Below are positions 1,696 to 39,416 of a stretch of DNA of 64,000 nucleotides, one piece after another. Numbering within the stretch: position 1 is the first letter of the stretch; every line of letters starts with the position of its first letter. The notes below the pieces were generated by a model, which was not told the origin of the DNA, searched no databases, and was given only the letters and a program-made list of their open reading frames with translations. The DNA comes from Halorientalis salina (GTDB taxonomy: Archaea; Halobacteriota; Halobacteria; Halobacteriales; Haloarculaceae), in contig NZ_SOSC01000007.1 of assembly GCF_005049285.1 (NCBI RefSeq), positions 1-64,000 of the forward strand. The letters run 5' to 3'. A program made the translations under genes and the position numbers.

Positions 1696-2367
1696 ATGAG
1701 CAAGGAACCCGACGACGGCGAACGCGGCGGTAGTAGCATTGACTATCAGCGAAGTACCTTTGAAAACGGTGCCGCGCCGTGGAAGGACCCACAGGTACTG
1801 GGGACACTCTACCACGAACACGACCTTTCCCAGTCGGAGATAGCCGATGAACTTGGAACCAGTCAACCAAACATATCGAACTGGATGGACAAGTTCAACA
1901 TTGAGAGGGATTTGCCGATGCACCTACGGGACCGTTCAATTTCACGGAGTATCCGTGAAGATGGACGTGTCCAGTATCAGATTCCGAACGGGGACGGTGA
2001 GGTAGTCAGTATCTATGAGAGTCAGATCGTAGCACTCGGCTTTGCAACAGTCGAGACAGTCTTCCGAGATGATAGCGAGATCGATCACCTGCTACATTCG
2101 CCATTGAAACTCAACTTTGAGGAGAATTTGCTTGCACGACCAGAGACTGATCACCGAAAACGACACTCAATTGGTAAAGGTGCATTACCGAACACGAAAC
2201 TCTTGACATTGGTCTATGGCGAGCCAGATGGGACTGTTCCAGAATTTTTCTCACGACTTGACCAGTGGGGAAATTGGTGGGCCGATATAGAACGTCTCGA
2301 TGAGAGGGACGTAAGCCCCGTATTCAGTGCCGATGGGAACGTGTCTGAGGGAGAGACGGCAGACTGA
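1696..2367 (+). CDS. HTH DNA-binding protein of the rep operon
   Basis: The 223-aa product has a clear helix-turn-helix at about residues 38-60 (SQSEIADELGTSQPNISNWM), of the kind that precedes resolvase- or Xre-like binding domains. The rest is unrecognised. The ATG at 1696 is preferred to an upstream GTG at 1666 because the extension would overlap the structured leader and adds nothing recognisable. Its stop overlaps the rep start (TGATG at 2365-2369), so the two are translationally coupled. It probably regulates the operon or helps Rep recognise the origin. Confidence 0.65.
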   Translation: MSKEPDDGERGGSSIDYQRSTFENGAAPWKDPQVLGTLYHEHDLSQSEIADELGTSQPNISNWMDKFNIERDLPMHLRDRSISRSIREDGRVQYQIPNGDGEVVSIYESQIVALGFATVETVFRDDSEIDHLLHSPLKLNFEENLLARPETDHRKRHSIGKGALPNTKLLTLVYGEPDGTVPEFFSRLDQWGNWWADIERLDERDVSPVFSADGNVSEGETAD

Positions 2368-3965
2368 TGTCCGATAGTTGTTCCGTCGTTGGCGATACTG
2401 TCGAGACTGTCACCAGCGACGACGAAATGCGTGACCGAGGGCTGTCCATCGGCGGTGACCCCCACAGTGACGCCGTCATTCTTCGGTATCTCCGTCACGA
2501 TTGTTTGCTGTCGTACAACGACGCCGCAGAACGGATTGAGGCAGTCTTTGGGTATGCTTGCTCAAAGTCGATGATTCGACGTGGGATGGAGAAACACGGG
2601 ATTCGTGACCCACTCACTGATGGTCCGTTCGCTGACATTCTTCAGGCCGACGACGATACAGAACCAGCACAACCCCCCTCGTTTCTCTTGGAACGCTCAG
2701 AAGATAGTCCAGTCCACCCGTTCGACAGTGACGTTCACACTCTGGACACTGACGACGAACAGGGATGGGTGGTCGAGCGGAACGAAAAATCAGTGCCAAC
2801 ACCCCGTTTAGTTTCCAGTCCAGATTCCGATTCGTCCGTCACAACGACTGAGACACCAAATTCGGATTTTGAGAGCGGAACGGGAGTATATAAGTGGTCG
2901 ACAGATACCTCACCCAGTGCGTATCGGGTTGACCCGAGTAATCGAGAAGTTTCATTAGTTGCACCGCCCGATGCTGTCCAGTCAGACGATTATCCCGACC
3001 TCTACAAAGCCTGTGGGTGTGGTACCTGTGACGAGAAGCACTTTCTCGACGGCGACGGTGGGACGATCGACTGTTCTCAGCCTGTCCCTGTGACGATAGC
3101 AGGAGCGAGACGAATCTATCAGCACACCGAGGGAACGAACTACGCTGACGATGTCGATGGGAACGACGTACAGCGGGCGAGTCAGAAGTACGCTCGCTTG
3201 ATGAAAGCCGATAGTGCTGTCTTGGGCATGGACGGAACAGAACCACCCACAGAGCCGACAGACGCGACGTACATCAGCGGGAAGGCAGAGTACGACGATT
3301 GGACCACGGTACTCGTATCGCTACGTGTCTCCCCAACTGACGACGACGGACGGCTCGTGACACCGCTGGTTCTCGTCGATGATTGTTTGGACGCATGGCA
3401 GGAAGCCAGAACGAAGCTTCCGACAGACAAGTACGATCTATTCGTCCGATATTGGCTCGGTACAGGGACCGACGACTGGGGGTCCCCTCATATTCACTGC
3501 CACCTGTGGATTCCTGACCCTGACGACGACGTGACTCGTACTGACTTTCGCCCGACAGTCGAGACGTTCGTGCAAGCCTCTACATTTGCCCCCGTAGAGG
3601 CACATTTTGAGACTGGAAGCGGAAAGAGGGTCCAACTTACCGAGGGAGTGGTCCGTGTCGAAAATTCGCCGTTACTGGCAAACCCTGACCGTTTGGGCAG
3701 TCGTGTCACGTCCGACAATCCCTTCGGTGACGTTCTCGACACAGCACCAGAGCGGCTTACAGACGGCGACAGCGTCCAGTCACGCGGTGCGATCTACGTC
3801 GGCACCCAACATCTCGGCTTTGCGTTACTCGGTGCGGAGCGGCCAGCACACACTGAGGCCGCCGCGTTCTTCGAGGTTGGAACGATGGGGCGACACACTT
3901 CGCATGGTGCTGGTGGCTTCTACGAGTTTGCCGATCACTGTGACGCGCTCAACGAATCTGCATAG
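2367..3965 (+). CDS. HUH-type rolling-circle replication initiator (Rep)
   Basis: The 532-aa protein has an N-terminal HTH-like segment (about 35-80), an acidic linker, a Cys cluster (C216, C218, C221) and a C-terminal HUH endonuclease-like domain. The metal-binding motif is HIHCH at 375-379, preceded by a motif-I-like strand (TTVLVSLRVSP, 313-323). Tyr477 in AIYVGTQH is the best candidate nicking residue. HUH Reps nick the origin and stay covalently bound to the 5' end. Reps of haloarchaeal small plasmids and pleolipoviruses show a similar order of motifs. The gene is second in a coupled operon. The family is supported by motifs only. Confidence 0.7.
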   Translation: MSDSCSVVGDTVETVTSDDEMRDRGLSIGGDPHSDAVILRYLRHDCLLSYNDAAERIEAVFGYACSKSMIRRGMEKHGIRDPLTDGPFADILQADDDTEPAQPPSFLLERSEDSPVHPFDSDVHTLDTDDEQGWVVERNEKSVPTPRLVSSPDSDSSVTTTETPNSDFESGTGVYKWSTDTSPSAYRVDPSNREVSLVAPPDAVQSDDYPDLYKACGCGTCDEKHFLDGDGGTIDCSQPVPVTIAGARRIYQHTEGTNYADDVDGNDVQRASQKYARLMKADSAVLGMDGTEPPTEPTDATYISGKAEYDDWTTVLVSLRVSPTDDDGRLVTPLVLVDDCLDAWQEARTKLPTDKYDLFVRYWLGTGTDDWGSPHIHCHLWIPDPDDDVTRTDFRPTVETFVQASTFAPVEAHFETGSGKRVQLTEGVVRVENSPLLANPDRLGSRVTSDNPFGDVLDTAPERLTDGDSVQSRGAIYVGTQHLGFALLGAERPAHTEAAAFFEVGTMGRHTSHGAGGFYEFADHCDALNESA

Positions 3966-4430: not shown

Positions 4431-4548
4431 TTACCAACCTGATAACATTCCTGACGATGCAATCATTCTCCAATGTGGTACCGTTGTCGGGGAAGACGGT
4501 GTTCTCGGCCACGTTGAGACCAACGATGTGGAGGTGTCGGAAGAATGA
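4423..4548 (+). CDS. 41-aa protein of the rep operon
   Basis: A short frame starts with ATGAGTGATTAC at 4423, inside the end of the previous gene, and ends at 4548, overlapping the next start by 4 nt (ATGA). The predicted product is acidic with a short beta-like core (AIILQCGTVVGEDGVLGHVE). The overlaps at both ends and the continued codon bias make it likely to be a real coupled gene despite its size. Confidence 0.6.
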   Translation: MSDYQPDNIPDDAIILQCGTVVGEDGVLGHVETNDVEVSEE

Positions 4549-5867
4549 CGGAATACGATCCTGACTGCCTCACCGATTCGAAGGTCTGGGTAAATAATCA
4601 CCGTCTCCCTGCTGGTGATGTAGACCTGTATATGCGGAAAGAGGGACCCCTTGACGTAACACGCTACGTCGAGGGGAAATTCGCGTCACCGTGGAACGAC
4701 GAAGACTTCACGAAGTATTTCAATCTCCTCCCAGGCAATGACCCACTCGTTTCAGAATCTCAAGATTTGTTTGATACGCTCCGTGTCGACGTGAGGGATA
4801 CGCAAGATACTGAAGATGCAAAGGAAGATGGCACGGTGGATGAAGAAGACGAAGGCAACATCTACCACACGCAATTTATGGGTGTGGTAACTGGTGTTGG
4901 AAGTAGTATCTCGAAGAACGAAAAGGAGTGGGCGTTCCGTGCCCGTGGTCCTGGGATGTTCGTTGATAAGATACCAGCCAGCAAAACATTCACAAATGGA
5001 TCGACACAGAACATCCTCCGTTACGTCAAACAACAAATTGAGGGAAAATACCCCTTCGAGATATCCGTTGACAACACAAACGAATCGTTCAATTTCGACA
5101 CGAACCCTGGGATAAACCTCGTCGAAGGAGCCATCAACCAACTTCCACTACTTGGGAACTACGAAATCCCTGGTGGCTCGAAGACATTCAAGAAGAATCA
5201 GGATACGCTGGAAGACGTGTTGACGTGGCTTGATGATAAGGTCGGTATCCGTCTCTGGTTCGAGCCGACACCGAATGGAGCCGTTCTTGTTGGGACTGAT
5301 ACTCCGACTGCAACTGAACACAACGCACACTACCTTGATGGTGAAACGTACATACTGAACAACGACGCACTTGTCGAGATCAATCCCGTCAACACCCTCA
5401 CTGTCAAATCCAAAGTGACTGATTCACTTGGTGTCGATGGTGTCTTCGAGATCAAGGAGATTAAAACAGGCAACGAGTACAACATTGCCAAGGTACGACA
5501 CCAACCACTGTACGAAAAGGCTGGACGACGGGAGTTTATCGCTGCACCTGATGCTCTGTCTGATGCTGATACCAAGAACGGCTTGGTCAACGAAGCCAAG
5601 TCCATGTTGAAAACGGAGATCGACGAAGCAACAGGTGGTGATATGAGTACATTGCTCAACGTACCAGTGAAACCATACGACACCATCGTTGCCCGTCCGA
5701 CGTGTGTCAAAAGTGATGGCAGTGACGTAGACCCAGTAACCTACGAAGTCTCCCGCGTCCACCACGAGATCAAAGCAGGCGGTGTCTCACGGACGAACCT
5801 CAACGTTGGACTGCACGCTGCATTGGGTGACATCGAGAAGGTTAGTGTCGAAACTGAAAAGGTATAG
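4545..5867 (+). CDS. Phage late-control gpD / baseplate-hub-like protein
   Basis: The 440-aa product looks like the gpD/VgrG/gp27 hub fold. An N-terminal beta domain describes an axis-like segment (about 1-85), then FMGVVTGVGSSIS (about 111-123), a segment with AFRARGPGMFVDKIP followed by KTFTNGSTQNILRYV, and a second domain TLEDVLTWLDDKVGIRLWF. In phages such hubs connect the tail tube to the baseplate. The match is by pattern, not by alignment, and no tube, sheath or other tail gene lies beside it, which is unexpected. It is the last gene of the coupled operon. Alternative: a virion or secreted protein that reuses this fold. Confidence 0.4.
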   Translation: MTEYDPDCLTDSKVWVNNHRLPAGDVDLYMRKEGPLDVTRYVEGKFASPWNDEDFTKYFNLLPGNDPLVSESQDLFDTLRVDVRDTQDTEDAKEDGTVDEEDEGNIYHTQFMGVVTGVGSSISKNEKEWAFRARGPGMFVDKIPASKTFTNGSTQNILRYVKQQIEGKYPFEISVDNTNESFNFDTNPGINLVEGAINQLPLLGNYEIPGGSKTFKKNQDTLEDVLTWLDDKVGIRLWFEPTPNGAVLVGTDTPTATEHNAHYLDGETYILNNDALVEINPVNTLTVKSKVTDSLGVDGVFEIKEIKTGNEYNIAKVRHQPLYEKAGRREFIAAPDALSDADTKNGLVNEAKSMLKTEIDEATGGDMSTLLNVPVKPYDTIVARPTCVKSDGSDVDPVTYEVSRVHHEIKAGGVSRTNLNVGLHAALGDIEKVSVETEKV

Positions 5868-6029: not shown

Positions 6030-6307
6030 GGGTAATCGTGTCACCCCGTTACCCGCCTGAAATCTGTGACAAAATCTCGACACTGTGATCCCCTCCCCCG
6101 TCATCTGGCGGTGGCCACCCATAGCCTAATCGTGACCACCATGGTCTGTATGGGGGAATTAGGGACACCTTCCTGTTCTATATCATAGGTGATAAATCCT
6201 ATCAGAACAATGGTGTTAAGTGGGTGGATTCCCTACGTAGATGTAACTCACTGCGTGTTTGCGCTTTGCGGAAAAGCGCCTGTGTTAGAGCACAGACGCA
6301 GTGGGTT
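6030..6307 (+). other. Chain of hairpins ending in a three-way junction
   Basis: The gap between 5868 and 6318 has no gene but strong structure. GGGTAA/TTACCC pairs at 6030-6035 and 6049-6054. CCCATA/TATGGG (6118-6123, 6149-6154) encloses GACCA/TGGTC (6134-6138, 6142-6146). GTTCT/AGAAC (6175-6179, 6204-6208) encloses ATAGG/CCTAT. A 12-bp stem with one G-U pair (6245-6256 with 6296-6307) encloses two perfect hairpins, GCGCTTT/AAAGCGC (6261-6267, 6273-6279) and CTGTG/CACAG (6280-6284, 6291-6295). The junction ends 11 nt before the next ATG. It may be a replication origin or a structured leader. Confidence 0.6.
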
Positions 6308-6318
6308 GGTAGAACCCA

Positions 6319-6743
6319 TGAGTAAATCGGATTCGGCGGAACTTGAGCGTTCCGTCACGGACGAGAGTACAGACGCGAAACAGAGAGTCACGGGAGACGC
6401 TACCCTCGATAAGCGGTGGGCGCGGTCGGAGTTTCAGAAAATTGCTGACGAGATCATCACTAACGCGCGCAGTCTCGATCCCAAGGCAGATGATCGAGTC
6501 GATGCCGAGAACTATTACGAGTTCCAAACTTCGCCAGCAGCATTCAGTTCGATATTGTTCGTGGCTAAGCGTTTATCAGTCCACCGAGAACGGGATGGTC
6601 GGACTCTGAATACGCTGCTTGAACACCCCGTCTTCTTCGAGGGACATGGACAGGGATTCGTCCAGATTCATGTTCGTGGAGACATCGAAACTCACGAAGT
6701 CGTGTCTGTCGACATTGTCTCGGGGTTAGAGACTGACAGATAG
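6319..6743 (+). CDS. Element protein of unknown function
   Basis: The 141-aa product starts at the ATG at 6319, directly after the three-way junction. A start at 6189 is rejected because it would read through that structure. The protein has an acidic N-terminus and a compact alpha/beta C-terminal part (about 75-138) with no motif I recognise. The structured DNA before it suggests control at the RNA level or a link with replication. Confidence 0.6.
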
Positions 6744-6984: not shown

Positions 6985-7265
6985 AGAGAGACTATGGCTC
7001 CCACTATTTTGACGCTTTTCTCGAACTGGATTCGGGGTTAATTAGCCTTGTTACTGTCTACAGAAAATAATTAAAGGGTTACAGGTTAACGGGGTCGACA
7101 TATTATCCTACTATCTAATCCATCTCACTTCTCTATTTCAGCAACCAAGACATAAACGGCTTGTATAACAAGTCGTGTATGCCTCTCTCGACTTTGCTCT
7201 CAAAACCCTGTTTTCCACCGTTTTAGTGAGACAGTTAGTTCGTTGTGAGTCGTCCACCAGAGTTA

Positions 7266-7293
7266 ATACACGGAAAGTTAATTATCCGTGTAT
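7266..7293. promoter_or_regulatory. Inverted repeat over the SNJ2-type integrase start
   Basis: ATACACGGA (7266-7274) and TCCGTGTAT (7285-7293) are perfect 9-bp arms with a 10-nt AT-rich spacer. The right arm runs into the ATG at 7292, so a bound protein would block transcription or translation. A smaller palindrome, CTTGTATAACAAG, lies upstream at 7160-7172. The remaining gap, 6985-7265, is AT-rich promoter-like sequence without a gene. Confidence 0.55.
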
Positions 7294-7891
7294 GCAAATA
7301 GATGACTCGGAGAACGAAACGAAGTGTTGGCTACAGTATCCGAATGAGATTGATCGACTGGCACAGGAAGTCCGCGAAGGTGACTGGACTCGACGTATCG
7401 CCGTCCTAATGATGGGGAAGGTTGGGCTTCGAGCGAGTGGTGTGTTGACGGCAAAACCCCAGGGGTTGACCTACAACGACGACGGGAAATACTGGCAACT
7501 CGAAGTCCAGGGGAAAAACACCAAGGGTGGAGAGAAAGCCACGAGGGATGCCTACGTTCCTGATGGAGTCAAACGCGAGTTAGAGAACTATGCCAAGGAA
7601 CGAGGTATTGCTCCCTCAGAGCCATACGTTGATGTCTCGGTCGACAGTGTACGCCGATGGGTCCGTGAAGCGTCACAGTCCATTGCAGAGGCTACGGGTA
7701 ACGAGCGGTGGGAACACGTTTCTTCACACGACCTACGGCGGTCGTGGGCCACTCATCACCTCGTAGAGGAGGACGTGAGTGTTCGGATCATGATGGAGAT
7801 CGGTGGATGGAGTTCCTACGCCAGTATCGAGCCGTATCTCGCCAAGCCGACGCCGTCAACCATCGGTGAGGAAATGAACGCACTTCACTAA
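7292..7891 (+). CDS. SNJ2-type tyrosine integrase
   Basis: The 199-aa protein is little more than a tyrosine-recombinase catalytic domain. The first Arg lies in GLRASGVLT, the HxxR box in HDLRRSWATHHL, then GGWSS, and the nucleophile is in SIEPYL. The short length and lack of an arm-binding domain fit the SNJ2-type integrases of haloarchaeal temperate pleolipoviruses and related elements. The ATG at 7292 is chosen because it precedes the conserved region and sits in the inverted repeat. An upstream ATG at 7175 would add an unlikely extension. It would catalyse integration and excision. Confidence 0.75.
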   Translation: MQIDDSENETKCWLQYPNEIDRLAQEVREGDWTRRIAVLMMGKVGLRASGVLTAKPQGLTYNDDGKYWQLEVQGKNTKGGEKATRDAYVPDGVKRELENYAKERGIAPSEPYVDVSVDSVRRWVREASQSIAEATGNERWEHVSSHDLRRSWATHHLVEEDVSVRIMMEIGGWSSYASIEPYLAKPTPSTIGEEMNALH

Positions 7892-8040: not shown

Positions 8041-8060
8041 GGGTAGAGTGGAGTCCCGAC
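8041..8060 (+). repeat. 20-bp direct repeat, copy 1
   Basis: GGGTAGAGTGGAGTCCCGAC is repeated exactly at 8268-8287. The two copies flank the 47-aa gene. Copy 1 continues into a stem-loop (8048-8081: GTGG and CCGACC pairing with GGTCGG and CCAC) that could end transcription of the small gene on the minus strand. Confidence 0.6.
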
Positions 8061-8267: not shown

Positions 8268-8287
8268 GGGTAGAGTGGAGTCCCGAC
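8268..8287 (+). repeat. 20-bp direct repeat, copy 2
   Basis: This is an exact copy of 8041-8060 and lies about 40 nt upstream of the start of the 47-aa gene. It could be an operator or a recombination site. Confidence 0.6.
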
Positions 8288-10102: not shown

Positions 10103-11125
10103 TTAGATTCCGTCGATATACTTCCGTCTCGTCTCTGCCTTCTCGTGTTCAGTCCGTTGGTCGTAATGATGATCCAGAACGTCTTTACTCACGTCACAAC
10201 GGTCACTGACTGCTGTATCGGGAACGTCCTTGAGCAGGTGATGGGTGATACTGCCTCGGCGTACAGGATGTGGTGAGACGGACGACGGACATTTACAAGC
10301 GTCAGCATCGACAGTTGCCTCACAGTCGTCAGGATCACGGTTATGTGGGCAACTTTCCCACTGACATGGACGAGTAACACGGTAGACGGCCCGTTTGATG
10401 GCAGTTCCCCCAATCCTACCGTATCTTGTCGTGAACAGAGGTTTTCGTCCGTAGTCGTCGGTTTTCTCACGACGGTGGATGTCGATGTAGTCTTTCAGTA
10501 CGTCGACAACGTGATCCCCAAGAGCAATCACCCGCTCGCCACGGGTTCCGTTCTTGAGGGGGGTATCTGTCTCAGGACGGTGGTTCGTTTCCAGCGTTTT
10601 GTTTCGTGGGTGGAAATCTTCAAGATCAAACGAGCGAACCGTTCCCTTCCGAATGCCTGTGTGCCACATTACTTCGAGCAGAGCATGGGTTCGACTGGCG
10701 TACTCGTACTTCCGTAGCCACTGAAGCATCTGCTCGGCATGATCCGCTTTCAGCATCTCATCACGGGCTTCCTCACTTCGATCCCGTGAGGGGAGGATCA
10801 CTGTCTCGTGTAGCCCGTCAGGGACGCCGTCAATGCTCTCACACCACTGGAGAAACATACGGAGTGATGAGAGGTTGATCGACAACGTCGTTCGTGCAAC
10901 GTCCTTCTGCCGCCACAGGCGGTACTCGTGGAGCTTCCGCCCCGTTAATTCGTTGAGGTTGTCTACTCCCTCTTGTTCACACCATTCTCTGAACCGAGTT
11001 AGGTGGAGTGTGATGTTCTCCAGTGTTTTGTCCGCGACTTCTGTCTCGCGGTGGTTGAGGTACAGTTCGATCGCAGTCTCAGGTTCGATGGCTTGCAGTT
11101 CGGACATAATTGCTCCGAACCGCAT
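10103..11125 (-). CDS. XerC/D-type tyrosine integrase with Cys-rich insert
   Basis: The 340-aa protein has an N-terminal SAM-like core-binding domain (about 10-110) and a catalytic domain. Motifs are HTGIRKGTVR with the first Arg, HPVRRGSITHHL with the HxxR box, and DHHYDQRT with the likely Tyr nucleophile. Between the catalytic boxes lies a Cys-rich insert (about 253-280: CQWESC, DDCEA, CKC) that could bind zinc. A second ATG at 11107 is an alternative start. Sitting at the element edge with a candidate core site 73 bp upstream, it probably integrates the element. Confidence 0.8.
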   Translation of the reverse strand: MRFGAIMSELQAIEPETAIELYLNHRETEVADKTLENITLHLTRFREWCEQEGVDNLNELTGRKLHEYRLWRQKDVARTTLSINLSSLRMFLQWCESIDGVPDGLHETVILPSRDRSEEARDEMLKADHAEQMLQWLRKYEYASRTHALLEVMWHTGIRKGTVRSFDLEDFHPRNKTLETNHRPETDTPLKNGTRGERVIALGDHVVDVLKDYIDIHRREKTDDYGRKPLFTTRYGRIGGTAIKRAVYRVTRPCQWESCPHNRDPDDCEATVDADACKCPSSVSPHPVRRGSITHHLLKDVPDTAVSDRCDVSKDVLDHHYDQRTEHEKAETRRKYIDGI

Positions 11126-32487: not shown

Positions 32488-35271
32488 CTACGCGTTCCGG
32501 ACCTGCCGGAGCACGTCCGGTGCGTCGTCGAGGGCGTCGTCGAGTTCCGCTTCGTTCGGGCCGCCGCCCTGTGCGAAGTCCGGCGGGCCGCCGCCGCCGC
32601 CGCCGACGCGACCGGCGAGTTCGCCGACCACGTCACCGGCGTCGACGCCCGCGTCGTCCGGGACGGCGACGACGAACTGCGCGCCGTCCCGGCCGCTCCC
32701 GATGACGGCGATCTTGCCCTCCTCGACGATGGCGTTGGCCGTCGCCCGGAGTTCGTCCATGTCCGCGTCGAGGCGCTGTACGACGGCGGGCGTCCCGCCG
32801 ACGTCGACCTCCTCGCCCGCGTCAGCGCCTGCTGCCCTGACTTCCGCGAGTTCCTCTTTCAACTCCTCAATGGTCTTGCCTCGTTCTTTCCACTCGGTGA
32901 AGAAGCGCTCGGCGGTTTCGGGCACGTCCTGGGGGCTCACGTCGAGGATTTCGGCGGCCTCGGAGAGGGCGTCCTCGGTCCGCTGGGTGGCCTCGATGGC
33001 GGCGTCGCCGGCCGCGAACGTGATGCGCTCGACGCCGTCCTGGATGCGCTCGGTGCCGAGAATCTTGATCGCGCCGACGTCGCCGGTCCGGGCGACGTGG
33101 GTGCCGCCGCAGGCCTGGACGTCCTCGTCGACGTGGATGAGCCGGATCTGTTCGCCCGGCGGGATGCCACCCTGGTAGAGGTCGAACCCGTGTTCGGCCT
33201 CGGCCTCGTTTCTGTGCGGCCACTCCTGGCTGACCGTGCTGTTGTCCATGACGATCTCGTTGGCCAGGTGTTCGATTTCCCTGACTTCCTCGCGGGAGAT
33301 GGGCTCGTAGTGGCGCACGTCCAGGCGAGCGCTGTCCGTGTGTTTCTGGGCGCCGGCCTGGCGGATGTGGTCGCCCAGCACCCGTCGGGCGGCGTAGCCG
33401 ACGATGTGCGTCGCGGTGTGGTGGCGCATCAACCGATGGCGGCGCGTCGCGTCGATCTGGCCGCGGACGAACTCGCCTTTCCCGGGGTCCTCGTCGGTCC
33501 GATGGCGGACCACGCCGTCGCTGATCTGGACGTCCCTGACCTCCGCGGTCACGTCGTCGGTCGAGAGCGTCCCGTGGTCGGCGGGCTGGCCACCGCCCTC
33601 CGGGTAGAACATCGTCTGGTCCAGGACGATGTCGTACTCGCCGTCCTCGCGCTCGAAGACGTCCAGGACGACCGCCTCGAAGTCCATTCGCGTCTGGTCC
33701 TCGTAGTAGAGCCGGTCGGTATCTGGCAGTTCCGCGATGCGGTCGGCGTAGGGGTCGTCCTCGTCGGCCTCGACGCCCTCGCCCCCGCCGTGGCGCTCGG
33801 CGACCAGCGAGTAGAAGTCGTCCGGCACCGCGACGTCGACGCCCTTCTCGGCGGCGATCTCCGCGACCATGTCCGGCTGGATTCCGTGTGAGTCGTACAG
33901 CTCGATGAGTTCCTTCGTGGGTATCGACTCGCCTTTCCCGGCGTACTCGTCGGCGAGCTGGCGGACTCGGCGGCCCCCGCGGTCGAGCGTCTCGCGGTAG
34001 CGTTCGACTTCCGTCCGGACGATGTCCCGGATCGTGTCGCGGTTCTCGTAGTCGAGTCGCTCGGCCTGCATGTCGACGAGTTCGTCCAGCGGCGCGTCGA
34101 CGCCGACGTTGTCACAGAGGCGCTTGGTCCGCCGGAGGACCATCCGGGCGAGATAGCCCGTGCCGACGTTCGAGGGGACGATGCCGTCCCCGAGCATGTA
34201 CGCGAGCGTCCGGCAGTGATCGGAGATGGCGTAGATGTCTTCGAGGGGTTCGACGAGATCGCGCAGTTCCGACGTGGAGACGCCGACCTGGTCGGCGATG
34301 TCGTCGCGGGCGGCCTCGACGTCGTCGACGTCGTCGATGTCCAGGTTGCCCGAGAGCCGTGCCGCGTCGTGGATGATCGATTCCTCCTCGTCGGTGTGGT
34401 CGATGCCGGCGTTGTCCTTCAGGAACGCGATCATGTCGGGGTAGACCGCCTCGTAGACGGTCGGGGTCCCCTGGCTCATCCAGGTCCACCGCTCTAACCC
34501 GTAGCCCGTGTCGACGATGTAGGTGTCCATCGGGCTGTAGCGGTTCCCGTCTTTCATCTCGTACTCGCCCTCGGGGTCCTGCTCCATGGACATGAAGACG
34601 AGCGTCGCGAGTTCCGCGCCCTTGTAGATGACCTCGATGGCGGGACCGGCGTTGCCGCCGCCGACCCACGGGTCCTCGATGTAGGTAATCTCGTCGAGGT
34701 CGGCACCCAGCGAGTCGAACAGTTCGTCGCAGAGTTCGACCGTCTCGTCTTTCCAGTAAACTTCGCCCTCGTAGGCGTACTGGTCGGGGTCCTCGATGTC
34801 CTCCCGGGCGTTGAAGGCGTGGTGGGCCATCATCTCGAAGGCCATGGTGTGGCGGCCGGTCTTCCCGACGTTGTCGATGTCCTGCATCCGGATGCAGGGC
34901 TGGGAGATGGTGAGGGGATTCGCGGGGGGTGGCGTCTCCCCCGACGTGACCAGCGGCTGGAAGTCGTAGATCGACGCCTGCGTCAGGAGGACGTCGTCGC
35001 GCCAGCGGTTGGCCGCGACCGGATAGGGATCGATGCGTTCGTGGTCGTGGTCCTCGAAAAAGGAGAGGAACGCCTCGCGCATCTCCGCCAGGCTGTGTTC
35101 CTCGTCGAACCCCGGGTCGTCGATGAAGCTGTACTCCGCACAGGGCGGTTCGCCGCAGGTCTGTCGGTCCCCGTCCCGCGTCCAGAAGTTGGCCCCACAC
35201 TCCGAGCATTCCAGTCGGTGGAAGCCCTCGTCCTCGAAGTACTGGAGCTGGTACTCCTCCTCTAGGCTCAT
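32488..35271 (-). CDS. alaS: Alanyl-tRNA synthetase
   Basis: The 927-aa protein has the class II catalytic domain (about 60-380), a tRNA-binding part, an editing domain (zinc site [11 protein letters not shown] and [10 protein letters not shown]) and a DHHA1 C-terminal domain with the Gly-rich tail. It attaches Ala to tRNA-Ala and clears mischarged Ser/Gly. The extended N-terminus with [14 protein letters not shown] and CGEPPCAEY is the archaeal-type zinc-containing extension. Confidence 0.97.
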
Positions 35272-38046: not shown

Positions 38047-39416
38047 ACGAGGGGTTCGACCAGTCCGCGACCCGCGGTCAGGAGGTCCGCGACCCGGTCG
38101 GCGCTGGTCGCTTCCGCGTACACGCGGAGTTTCGGCTCGGTCCCGCTCGGCCTGACGAGCAGCCAGGAGCCGTCGTCGAGGAAGATCTTGAACCCGTCGA
38201 CGTCGTTGACCCGCTCGACGGCCGTGCCGGCGATCTCCTCGGGGAGCGCGCCGTCCAGGTCCGTGATGACCGGCTCCTTTCGCTCGTCCGGGCAGTCGAC
38301 GCTGACGCGGTCCTGGTGGATCTCCCCGTGTTCGGCTTCCAGGGCGTCGACTCGCTCGTCCATGTGGCGGTCGACGGTGGCCGCGGCCGCCAGCAGCGCC
38401 ACGAGAACGCCGTCCTTGTTGCGGACGTGGCCGCGAACGCCGAACCCGCCGCTTTCCTCGCCGCCCATCAGGGCGCCGTTGTCCGCCATCGCCTCGGCGA
38501 CGTATTTGAAGCCGACCGGCGTCTCGAAGACCAACTCGTCGTGGCTCTCCGCGACCCGGTCGACGATGCTGCTCGTCGAGACCGTTCGGACTGCCGGCCC
38601 CTCGTGCCCGCCGAGGAGGAAGTCGTAGACGGCCGCGAAGAAGAGGCTGGGGTCCAGGAACCCGCGATCGGGCGTGACGACGCCGATGCGGTCGGCGTCC
38701 CCGTCGTTGGCGATGCCGAGGTCGGCCTCGCCGGCCTGGACGCGGTCGATCAGGTCGCCGAGTCGCTCGGCGCTCGGTTCCGGGGAGTCGCCGCCGAACT
38801 CGGGATCGGTGTCACAGCGAAGGCGCTCGACCTCTGCACCCGCGGCTTCGAGCAGTCGGTCGGTGACGCCCCGGCCGCTCCCGTGCATGGCGTCGTAGGC
38901 CACCGTCAACCCGTCCAGATCGGCGGCGACGAACGCCAGGGCGTGGTCGACGTACGGGCCGACGAGGTCCGCCTCGCGGACACTACCGAACTCGCTTTCG
39001 TCGATGGGGTCGGGTTCGGCCAGGTTCGCCTCGATGGCGTCCGTGACCGCCGCAGGAGCTGGCGACCCGTCTTCGGGGATGAACTTCACGCCGTTGTATT
39101 CGGGCGGGTTGTGCGAGGCGGTGATCTGCAGGGCACCGGCGAGGCCGCGGTCCCGGACCGTCCAGGCGACGACCGGTGTCGGGCAGTCCCGATCGGGAAG
39201 CAGGACGTCGAAGCCGTTGGCACAGAGCACGCGAGCCAGTTCCTCGGCGAAGCCACGGGAGTGTTCGCGGGCGTCGTACCCGACCGCGACGGTTCCCGTC
39301 CGGCCTTCCTCCCGGAGGTGCGTTGCGACGGCCTGCCCGACGATGCGGACGCGCCGGTCGGTGAAGGTCTCCAGCGTCGCCCGCCATCCGTCGGTCCCGA
39401 ACGCGATTTCGTCCAT
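38043..39416 (-). CDS. Phosphohexomutase (phosphomannomutase/phosphoglucomutase type)
   Basis: The 457-aa alpha-D-phosphohexomutase starts MDEIAFGTDGWRA. It has the phosphoserine loop ITASHNPPEYNG, the metal loop DGDADRIG and the C-terminal phosphate loop RPSGTEPKLRVY. It moves a phosphate between C1 and C6 of a hexose (glucose, mannose or glucosamine). The ATG at 39416 gives the family's usual start. A second, different mutase is at 45358. Confidence 0.92.
   Translation of the reverse strand: MDEIAFGTDGWRATLETFTDRRVRIVGQAVATHLREEGRTGTVAVGYDAREHSRGFAEELARVLCANGFDVLLPDRDCPTPVVAWTVRDRGLAGALQITASHNPPEYNGVKFIPEDGSPAPAAVTDAIEANLAEPDPIDESEFGSVREADLVGPYVDHALAFVAADLDGLTVAYDAMHGSGRGVTDRLLEAAGAEVERLRCDTDPEFGGDSPEPSAERLGDLIDRVQAGEADLGIANDGDADRIGVVTPDRGFLDPSLFFAAVYDFLLGGHEGPAVRTVSTSSIVDRVAESHDELVFETPVGFKYVAEAMADNGALMGGEESGGFGVRGHVRNKDGVLVALLAAAATVDRHMDERVDALEAEHGEIHQDRVSVDCPDERKEPVITDLDGALPEEIAGTAVERVNDVDGFKIFLDDGSWLLVRPSGTEPKLRVYAEATSADRVADLLTAGRGLVEPLV

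Follow-up and report, generated by a model that had tools for sequence, protein, structure and literature searches.

Metastable leaders, in which a multi-helix fold at the 5′ end of the RNA stands against a hairpin at the start site, are known from the MS2 maturation gene and the hok mRNA. In archaea, the described case of a riboswitch is the fluoride riboswitch of Thermococcus kodakarensis, as of 2021 the sole natural one in this domain to have been determined by experiment (PMC8241225), and leaderless mRNAs are frequent in haloarchaea (PMC8241225). For the classical model virus PhiH1, the start of the early lytic transcript T4 was mapped decades ago, and the literature covered here, with the original PhiH and PhiCh1 papers outside its scope, reports no structure for the T4 leader of PhiH1 or PhiCh1. 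A literature search conducted mostly outside subscription journals found no prior description of the leader family presented below, and this three-armed family is apparently undescribed so far.

The window analyzed here is a 64,000-nt stretch of a Halorientalis salina contig (NZ_SOSC01000007.1). Positions 6245-6307 of its forward strand form a three-way junction (3WJ) composed of P1, J12, P2, and P3, without junction nucleotides beyond J12. We propose that this segment is probably the 5′ leader of the mRNA of gene 6318-6743 and belongs to a family of haloarchaeal cis-acting RNA switches. The parts of the locus are as follows.

6216..6220, + strand: TATA-like element TTAAG, the leader's own predicted promoter, from the sequence and the family promoter profile
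6233..6240, strand not applicable: palindrome CTACGTAG between the TATA element and P1, a candidate repressor operator
6243..6245, + strand: predicted transcription start, from the spacing to the TATA element and the parallel with PhiH1 T4
6245-6256, + strand: 5′ strand of P1 (12 bp, one U.G at 6248.6304)
6257-6260, + strand: J12, 4 nt, the single linker of the junction
6261-6279, + strand: hairpin P2, 7 bp (6261-6267/6273-6279), with a conserved A-rich loop end (..GAA/AGA)
6280-6295, + strand: hairpin P3, 5-6 bp (6280-6285/6290-6295), with a closing U.G on a 6-nt loop
6296-6307, + strand: 3′ strand of P1, its final 6 nt (6302-6307) common to P4
6302..6318, + strand: alternative helix P4, UGGGUU (6302-6307) with AACCCA (6313-6318)
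6318..6743, + strand: putatively controlled gene, 141 aa, with homologues behind leaders in genomes G080 and G008
6335..6356, + strand: in-ORF hairpin P6, GGCGGAAC (6335-6342) with GUUCCGUC (6349-6356)

A preliminary description of this DNA had proposed a compact fold, with a 12-bp stem containing one G-U pair around two hairpins, and had judged it unlikely to arise by chance. The fold is exactly as proposed, with an RNA energy of -33.6 kcal/mol against -19.1 ± 2.8 for shuffled sequences (z -5.2) and a z of -6.7 when folded as DNA; none of 200 shuffles matched the native fold energy, for RNA and DNA alike. The closeness to a start codon also stood, although the ATG occupies 6318-6320 rather than beginning at 6319, and the gap to the fold is 10 nt, not 11. 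Judging from the sequence, the mRNA probably begins where the fold begins. The 8-mer CTACGTAG is also present in one of the G080 copies (L013), and different palindromes occupy the same place in other leaders. The 141-aa protein had no family match in Pfam or PHROGs, and searching the genome contigs with it returned no match.

A DNA search with 6130-6740 against 146 genomes of the same family identified four further copies, two in G080 and one each in G098 and G008. All five copies, including that of the window, contain the same three-way junction 10-11 nt ahead of an ATG; the two in G080 lie ~630 bp apart, ahead of two different genes. A covariance model of five sequences (R1) matched 16 of 391 Halobacteria. 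The second model, R2, constructed from 13 hand-aligned core sequences with the ATG region left out, matched 81 of 391 genomes at E ≤ 0.05 (48/170 in family f4 and 35/146 in family f1). With R3, built on 127 R2 matches, the leader was detected at E ≤ 0.001 in 137 of 272 genomes and 57 of 76 genera, with a maximum of eight copies per genome and a second leader in the window's own genome (C19:198038-198105); the model E-values are rough, and most members were found through a covariance model and many are related, so that these counts are not independent events. A phylum-wide search outside Halobacteria returned only two marginal matches (E 0.016 and 0.034), and the family is essentially confined to this class. 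In Rfam 15, the window and its relatives had nothing above the gathering score (best chance matches, E 0.44), and an IMG/VR search, queried with two proteins and with three DNA patterns, yielded one SWIM relative and zero leaders. One variant (L030 1501-1591, + strand) carries an extra hairpin in the J12 linker, resulting in a four-way junction.

In a manually built 13-row alignment, in which N fills the gaps, 96.9% of cells are paired and 17 of 23 pairs show changes on both sides, compared with 33-47% of cells paired in slid controls of the same alignment. A 126-row alignment, which was fitted to the model and is hence biased toward it, has 95.7% of cells paired and both-sided changes in 22 of 23 pairs. 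Compensatory variants among the copies include CUGCGU/ACGCAG, CUGGCGU/ACGCCAG, and GUUGCGU/ACGCAAC. The preliminary description would have been refuted by homologues without covariation or by a fold energy no better than that of shuffled sequence; neither holds, and covariation is strong in P1, P2, and P3. In this respect, the leader has a hallmark of a translational riboswitch, a 5′ UTR structure maintained by covarying pairs. In leader pairs, G.T far exceeds A.C (184 vs 21, under a model that itself favours G.U), as would follow from folding of the coding strand. U.G and C.A wobble pairs are similar in shape. Among 108 six-nucleotide P3 loops, the closing pair is U.G in 55 and C.A in 48 (103/108) and never Watson-Crick; given the likeness of the two wobbles, this closure looks like a three-dimensional constraint.

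Downstream of 119 of 122 R2 matches, at a distance of 3-26 nt, lies an ATG that begins an ORF of 20 codons or more, although the model contains no ATG; the corresponding values are 13.8% at random positions and 14/122 on the opposite strand, with start codons predicted as the longest ORF among nearby ATGs. In the held-out set of 20 R3 matches, an ATG is in range of 18, one of these 18 being probably a chance match. The genes that follow form about 30 mutually dissimilar clusters and include SWIM zinc-finger proteins, small proteins, and a 23-24-aa ORF.

In most members, the bases directly 5′ of the AUG can pair with the 3′ strand of P1 to form P4, with examples elsewhere such as GCGGU/ACCGC, UGGCUU/AAGCCA, GGUUGUC/GACAACC, and GGUCUUC/GAAGACC. 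In the window, the last A of AACCCA is the A of the AUG, and P4 excludes the outer part of P1. P4 is absent from the covariance model that found the members, and its mean helix is 5.39 bp compared with 3.71 ± 0.09 bp for swapped partners (98 distinct pairs); across 1000 partner swaps the largest mean was 3.99, all below 5.39 bp. In 88 of 98 cases, the helix comes within 0-1 nt of the AUG, and it recurs in the held-out set (5.5 vs 3.97 ± 0.24 swapped), with fewer than 5 bp in about one in five members. As in translational riboswitches, a mutually exclusive helix is present at the start region, a likeness of structure from which we infer occlusion. In predictions for 37 °C and 1 M NaCl, not molar KCl, the P4-minus-3WJ energy has a median of -1.35 kcal/mol (IQR -3.9 to +0.4), with +1.7 kcal/mol for the window copy, a slight preference for the 3WJ, and -2.5 for a longer fragment; the two states are thus predicted to be close to isoenergetic. 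The fourth P1 pair is most commonly U.G (54/87), whereas P4 is perfect at the same position, as if P1 were tuned for displacement. SD-like motifs between P1 and the AUG were found in 40 of 103 leaders, with 15.9 ± 3.5 expected.

The upstream profile of 95 non-redundant leaders shows TTAAG at -33..-28 and an A-rich stretch at -39..-36 before P1 (BRE/TATA-like), placing the transcription start near P1. In the PhiH1 record (MK002701), where the T4 start is mapped at 34556, the sole leader match in 58 kb is at 34561-34633 (R2, E 3.7e-4), and when the RNA is folded from 34556 the first transcribed base is paired in P1, so that P1 nucleotide 1 is the T4 start. PhiCh1 (AF440695) contains a homologous element between the repressor ORF48 and ORF49 (E 4.4e-4). 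A T4-type early leader, with a 3WJ at the transcript 5′ end recognized by the covariance model, is therefore present in this family. A P4-like complement is found in both PhiH1 and PhiCh1, but it cannot act on the annotated AUG, which is located some 70-100 nt farther downstream. In BJ1, the leader precedes ORF21 and P4 (GGGUC/GACCC) adjoins the ATG, and leaders were also identified on plasmids of Haloprofundus, Halocatena, Natrinema, and Halomarina. The T1 leader of PhiH1 (151 nt, L153 13583-13733, corresponding to PhiH1 38582-38732) is covered by the antisense transcript T(ant), has a similar counterpart in PhiCh1 (L152 8020-8175), and has a stable fold (z -3.3); this structured leader gave no match to the family model.

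Most loci include a small divergent gene, commonly starting 60-130 nt upstream and winged-helix-like in five of the six scanned, an arrangement that suggests a repressor operon. The copies in the window, G080, and G098 lack the divergent small gene and sit in an element with a Rep-like protein. Upstream of many leaders (for example L094, L117, and L102), palindromes such as ACCTATTGC..GCAATAGGT and AAGACACGTGTCTT are present between the TATA element and P1; they are likely operators for the divergent winged-helix gene. In family f4 (L137 1340-1485, - strand, and L032, L104, L138), the leader is followed by a 23-24-aa ORF (MSPNTPPTQKGLVAQ..TEGHE), which apparently overlaps or adjoins the next gene, encoding a coiled-coil protein; a second, divergent leader is located ~750 bp away, with two winged-helix genes between.

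The otherwise unrelated downstream proteins have a weak N-terminal pattern in common. A shared N-terminal "peptide" serving as a protein tag was considered and rejected, as swap and synonymous-codon tests pointed to an RNA hairpin in part of the family. This hairpin, at nt +16..+42, was supported by the swap test (3.81 vs 3.08 ± 0.12 bp), with neighbouring intervals negative, and folding exceeded that of synonymous-codon shuffles only at +16..+39 (p 0.007) and +19..+42 (p 0.018), both uncorrected for the 13 intervals; over the whole of +16..+48, the same shuffle test showed no excess folding. The hairpin (codons 6-13) is likely real for a subset, about 28% having at least 5 bp, and is not universal. 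RNA structure within the ORF, rather than a peptide signal, may explain part of the N-terminal similarity.

The element surrounding the window leader encodes an HUH-like Rep (2367-3965) with an HIHCH motif and a weak DUF1424 match, followed by a 440-aa protein (4545-5867) that looks related to ORFs near the G098 and G008 leaders; the two would constitute a conserved element module. No match to the Rep was obtained by tblastn in named phages and plasmids. The right part of the element contains two tyrosine recombinase genes in opposite orientation (7175-7891, +, and 10103-11125, -), and an exact 20-nt direct repeat, GGGTAGAGTGGAGTCCCGAC, at 8041-8060 and 8268-8287, shortly after the integrase gene 7175-7891, could mark an attachment site or a past insertion.

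In the mechanism that we propose, nascent RNA would first form the three-way junction, with P1 closing the extreme 5′ end and the start codon accessible. Next, the complement just 5′ of the AUG could capture the 3′ strand of P1, and the resulting P4 hairpin would bury the ribosome landing site and unzip the outer half of P1. Stabilization of the 3WJ by a protein, a small molecule, an ion, or the folding order on new RNA would favour translation, and without such a stabilizer P4 would be favoured. We infer the transcription of the leader in the window organism, the lowering of translation by P4, and both the direction in which the switch works and the existence of a signal. Under this model, the leader family probably controls the timing of translation of operons in viruses, plasmids, and integrated elements.

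The more specific reading, that the leaders are a widespread natural riboswitch-like class sensing a common cellular signal (a metabolite, an ion, or a host factor) and gating repressor-controlled mobile-element operons, with the coding-region hairpin included, is one that we offer tentatively; the variety of the downstream genes does not point to a single metabolite. Alternatively, the leader might be a ligand-free kinetic timer, translated while fresh RNA is in the 3WJ and turned off as it matures into P4. The P1 strands are transcribed ahead of the P4 partner and the P4 state is slightly more stable on average, as such a timer would have it, but the conserved loops (the U.G/C.A closure of L3 and the GAA of L2) point to recognition by some partner and the window copy leans toward the 3WJ, which makes the timer rather unlikely. 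A constitutive role, in which the 3WJ would protect the 5′ end or bring the AUG near the mRNA start in a leaderless-like manner, with P4 as a local helper, would suit a fold located at the extreme 5′ end of the transcript, the many unrelated downstream genes, and the often leaderless mRNAs of haloarchaea (PMC8241225). We regard it as unlikely, given that P1 and P4 compete for one strand while both are conserved, that the mostly U.G fourth P1 pair coincides with a perfect P4, and that the energies are balanced.

Two readings place the function in DNA. That the inverted repeats are double-stranded operators for the divergent winged-helix repressor, the RNA fold being incidental, draws on the divergent genes and the palindromes around the promoter; it is very improbable in view of the covariation in three helices, the excess of G.T over A.C on the coding strand, the strand-fixed orientation in register with the start codon, and the window, G080, and G098 copies, which have no such gene. 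The preliminary description had suggested a nick site or single-strand origin for the HUH Rep; on this reading, the segment would act as single-stranded DNA. The segment does fold as DNA, and in G080, G098, and G008 a Rep relative is encoded upstream of the leader. However, most leaders occur in genomes, viruses, and plasmids without this Rep, G056 has a Rep relative but lacks a leader at E ≤ 1e-3, BJ1 has a gene of the Orc1/Cdc6 type in place of the Rep, and genomes harbour up to eight copies, almost always just 5′ of an ATG with their own promoter-like sequence and with P4 abutting the AUG. The co-occurrence with Rep that a rolling-circle origin (dso or sso) calls for was thus not found, and an origin function is hardly credible. 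The other suggestion of that description, a riboswitch-like leader, is supported by the position of the leaders on the coding strand just 5′ of the ATG, by their beginning at or near the transcription start, as mapped in PhiH1, and by the conserved alternative hairpin at the start codon.

If the RNA switch reading is correct, a large family of RNA-based control elements is present in about half of the sampled haloarchaeal species and lies in virus and plasmid control regions, that of the PhiH1 early lytic transcript among them. RNA control of halovirus early genes thereby becomes directly testable, and a compact native switch is on offer for haloarchaeal genetics.

Among the known systems, archaeal ribosomal-protein leaders are likewise structured and located 5′ of the start codon (PMC7247131), whereas no gene seen behind the leaders here was recognized as encoding a ribosomal protein, the products being SWIM zinc-finger or uncharacterized small proteins. 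With translational riboswitches, the haloarchaeal leader shares a compact conserved 5′ RNA, a competing helix that excludes another at the ribosome landing site, a near balance of the two energies, and association with many genes; it differs in being only a putative switch, in the diverse and often element-borne genes, in the hairpin inside the ORF of some members, and in having no Rfam match. The MS2 and hok leaders are described as showing the same kind of competition, but the haloarchaeal leaders are a large covarying archaeal family. The T4 leader of PhiH1 and PhiCh1 is longer, with further hairpins, and its P4-like complement is not beside the annotated AUG; nevertheless, it is a distant homologue by covariance model, opposite the repR repressor, with P1 at the mapped T4 start in PhiH1 and with a downstream complement to the 3′ strand of P1.
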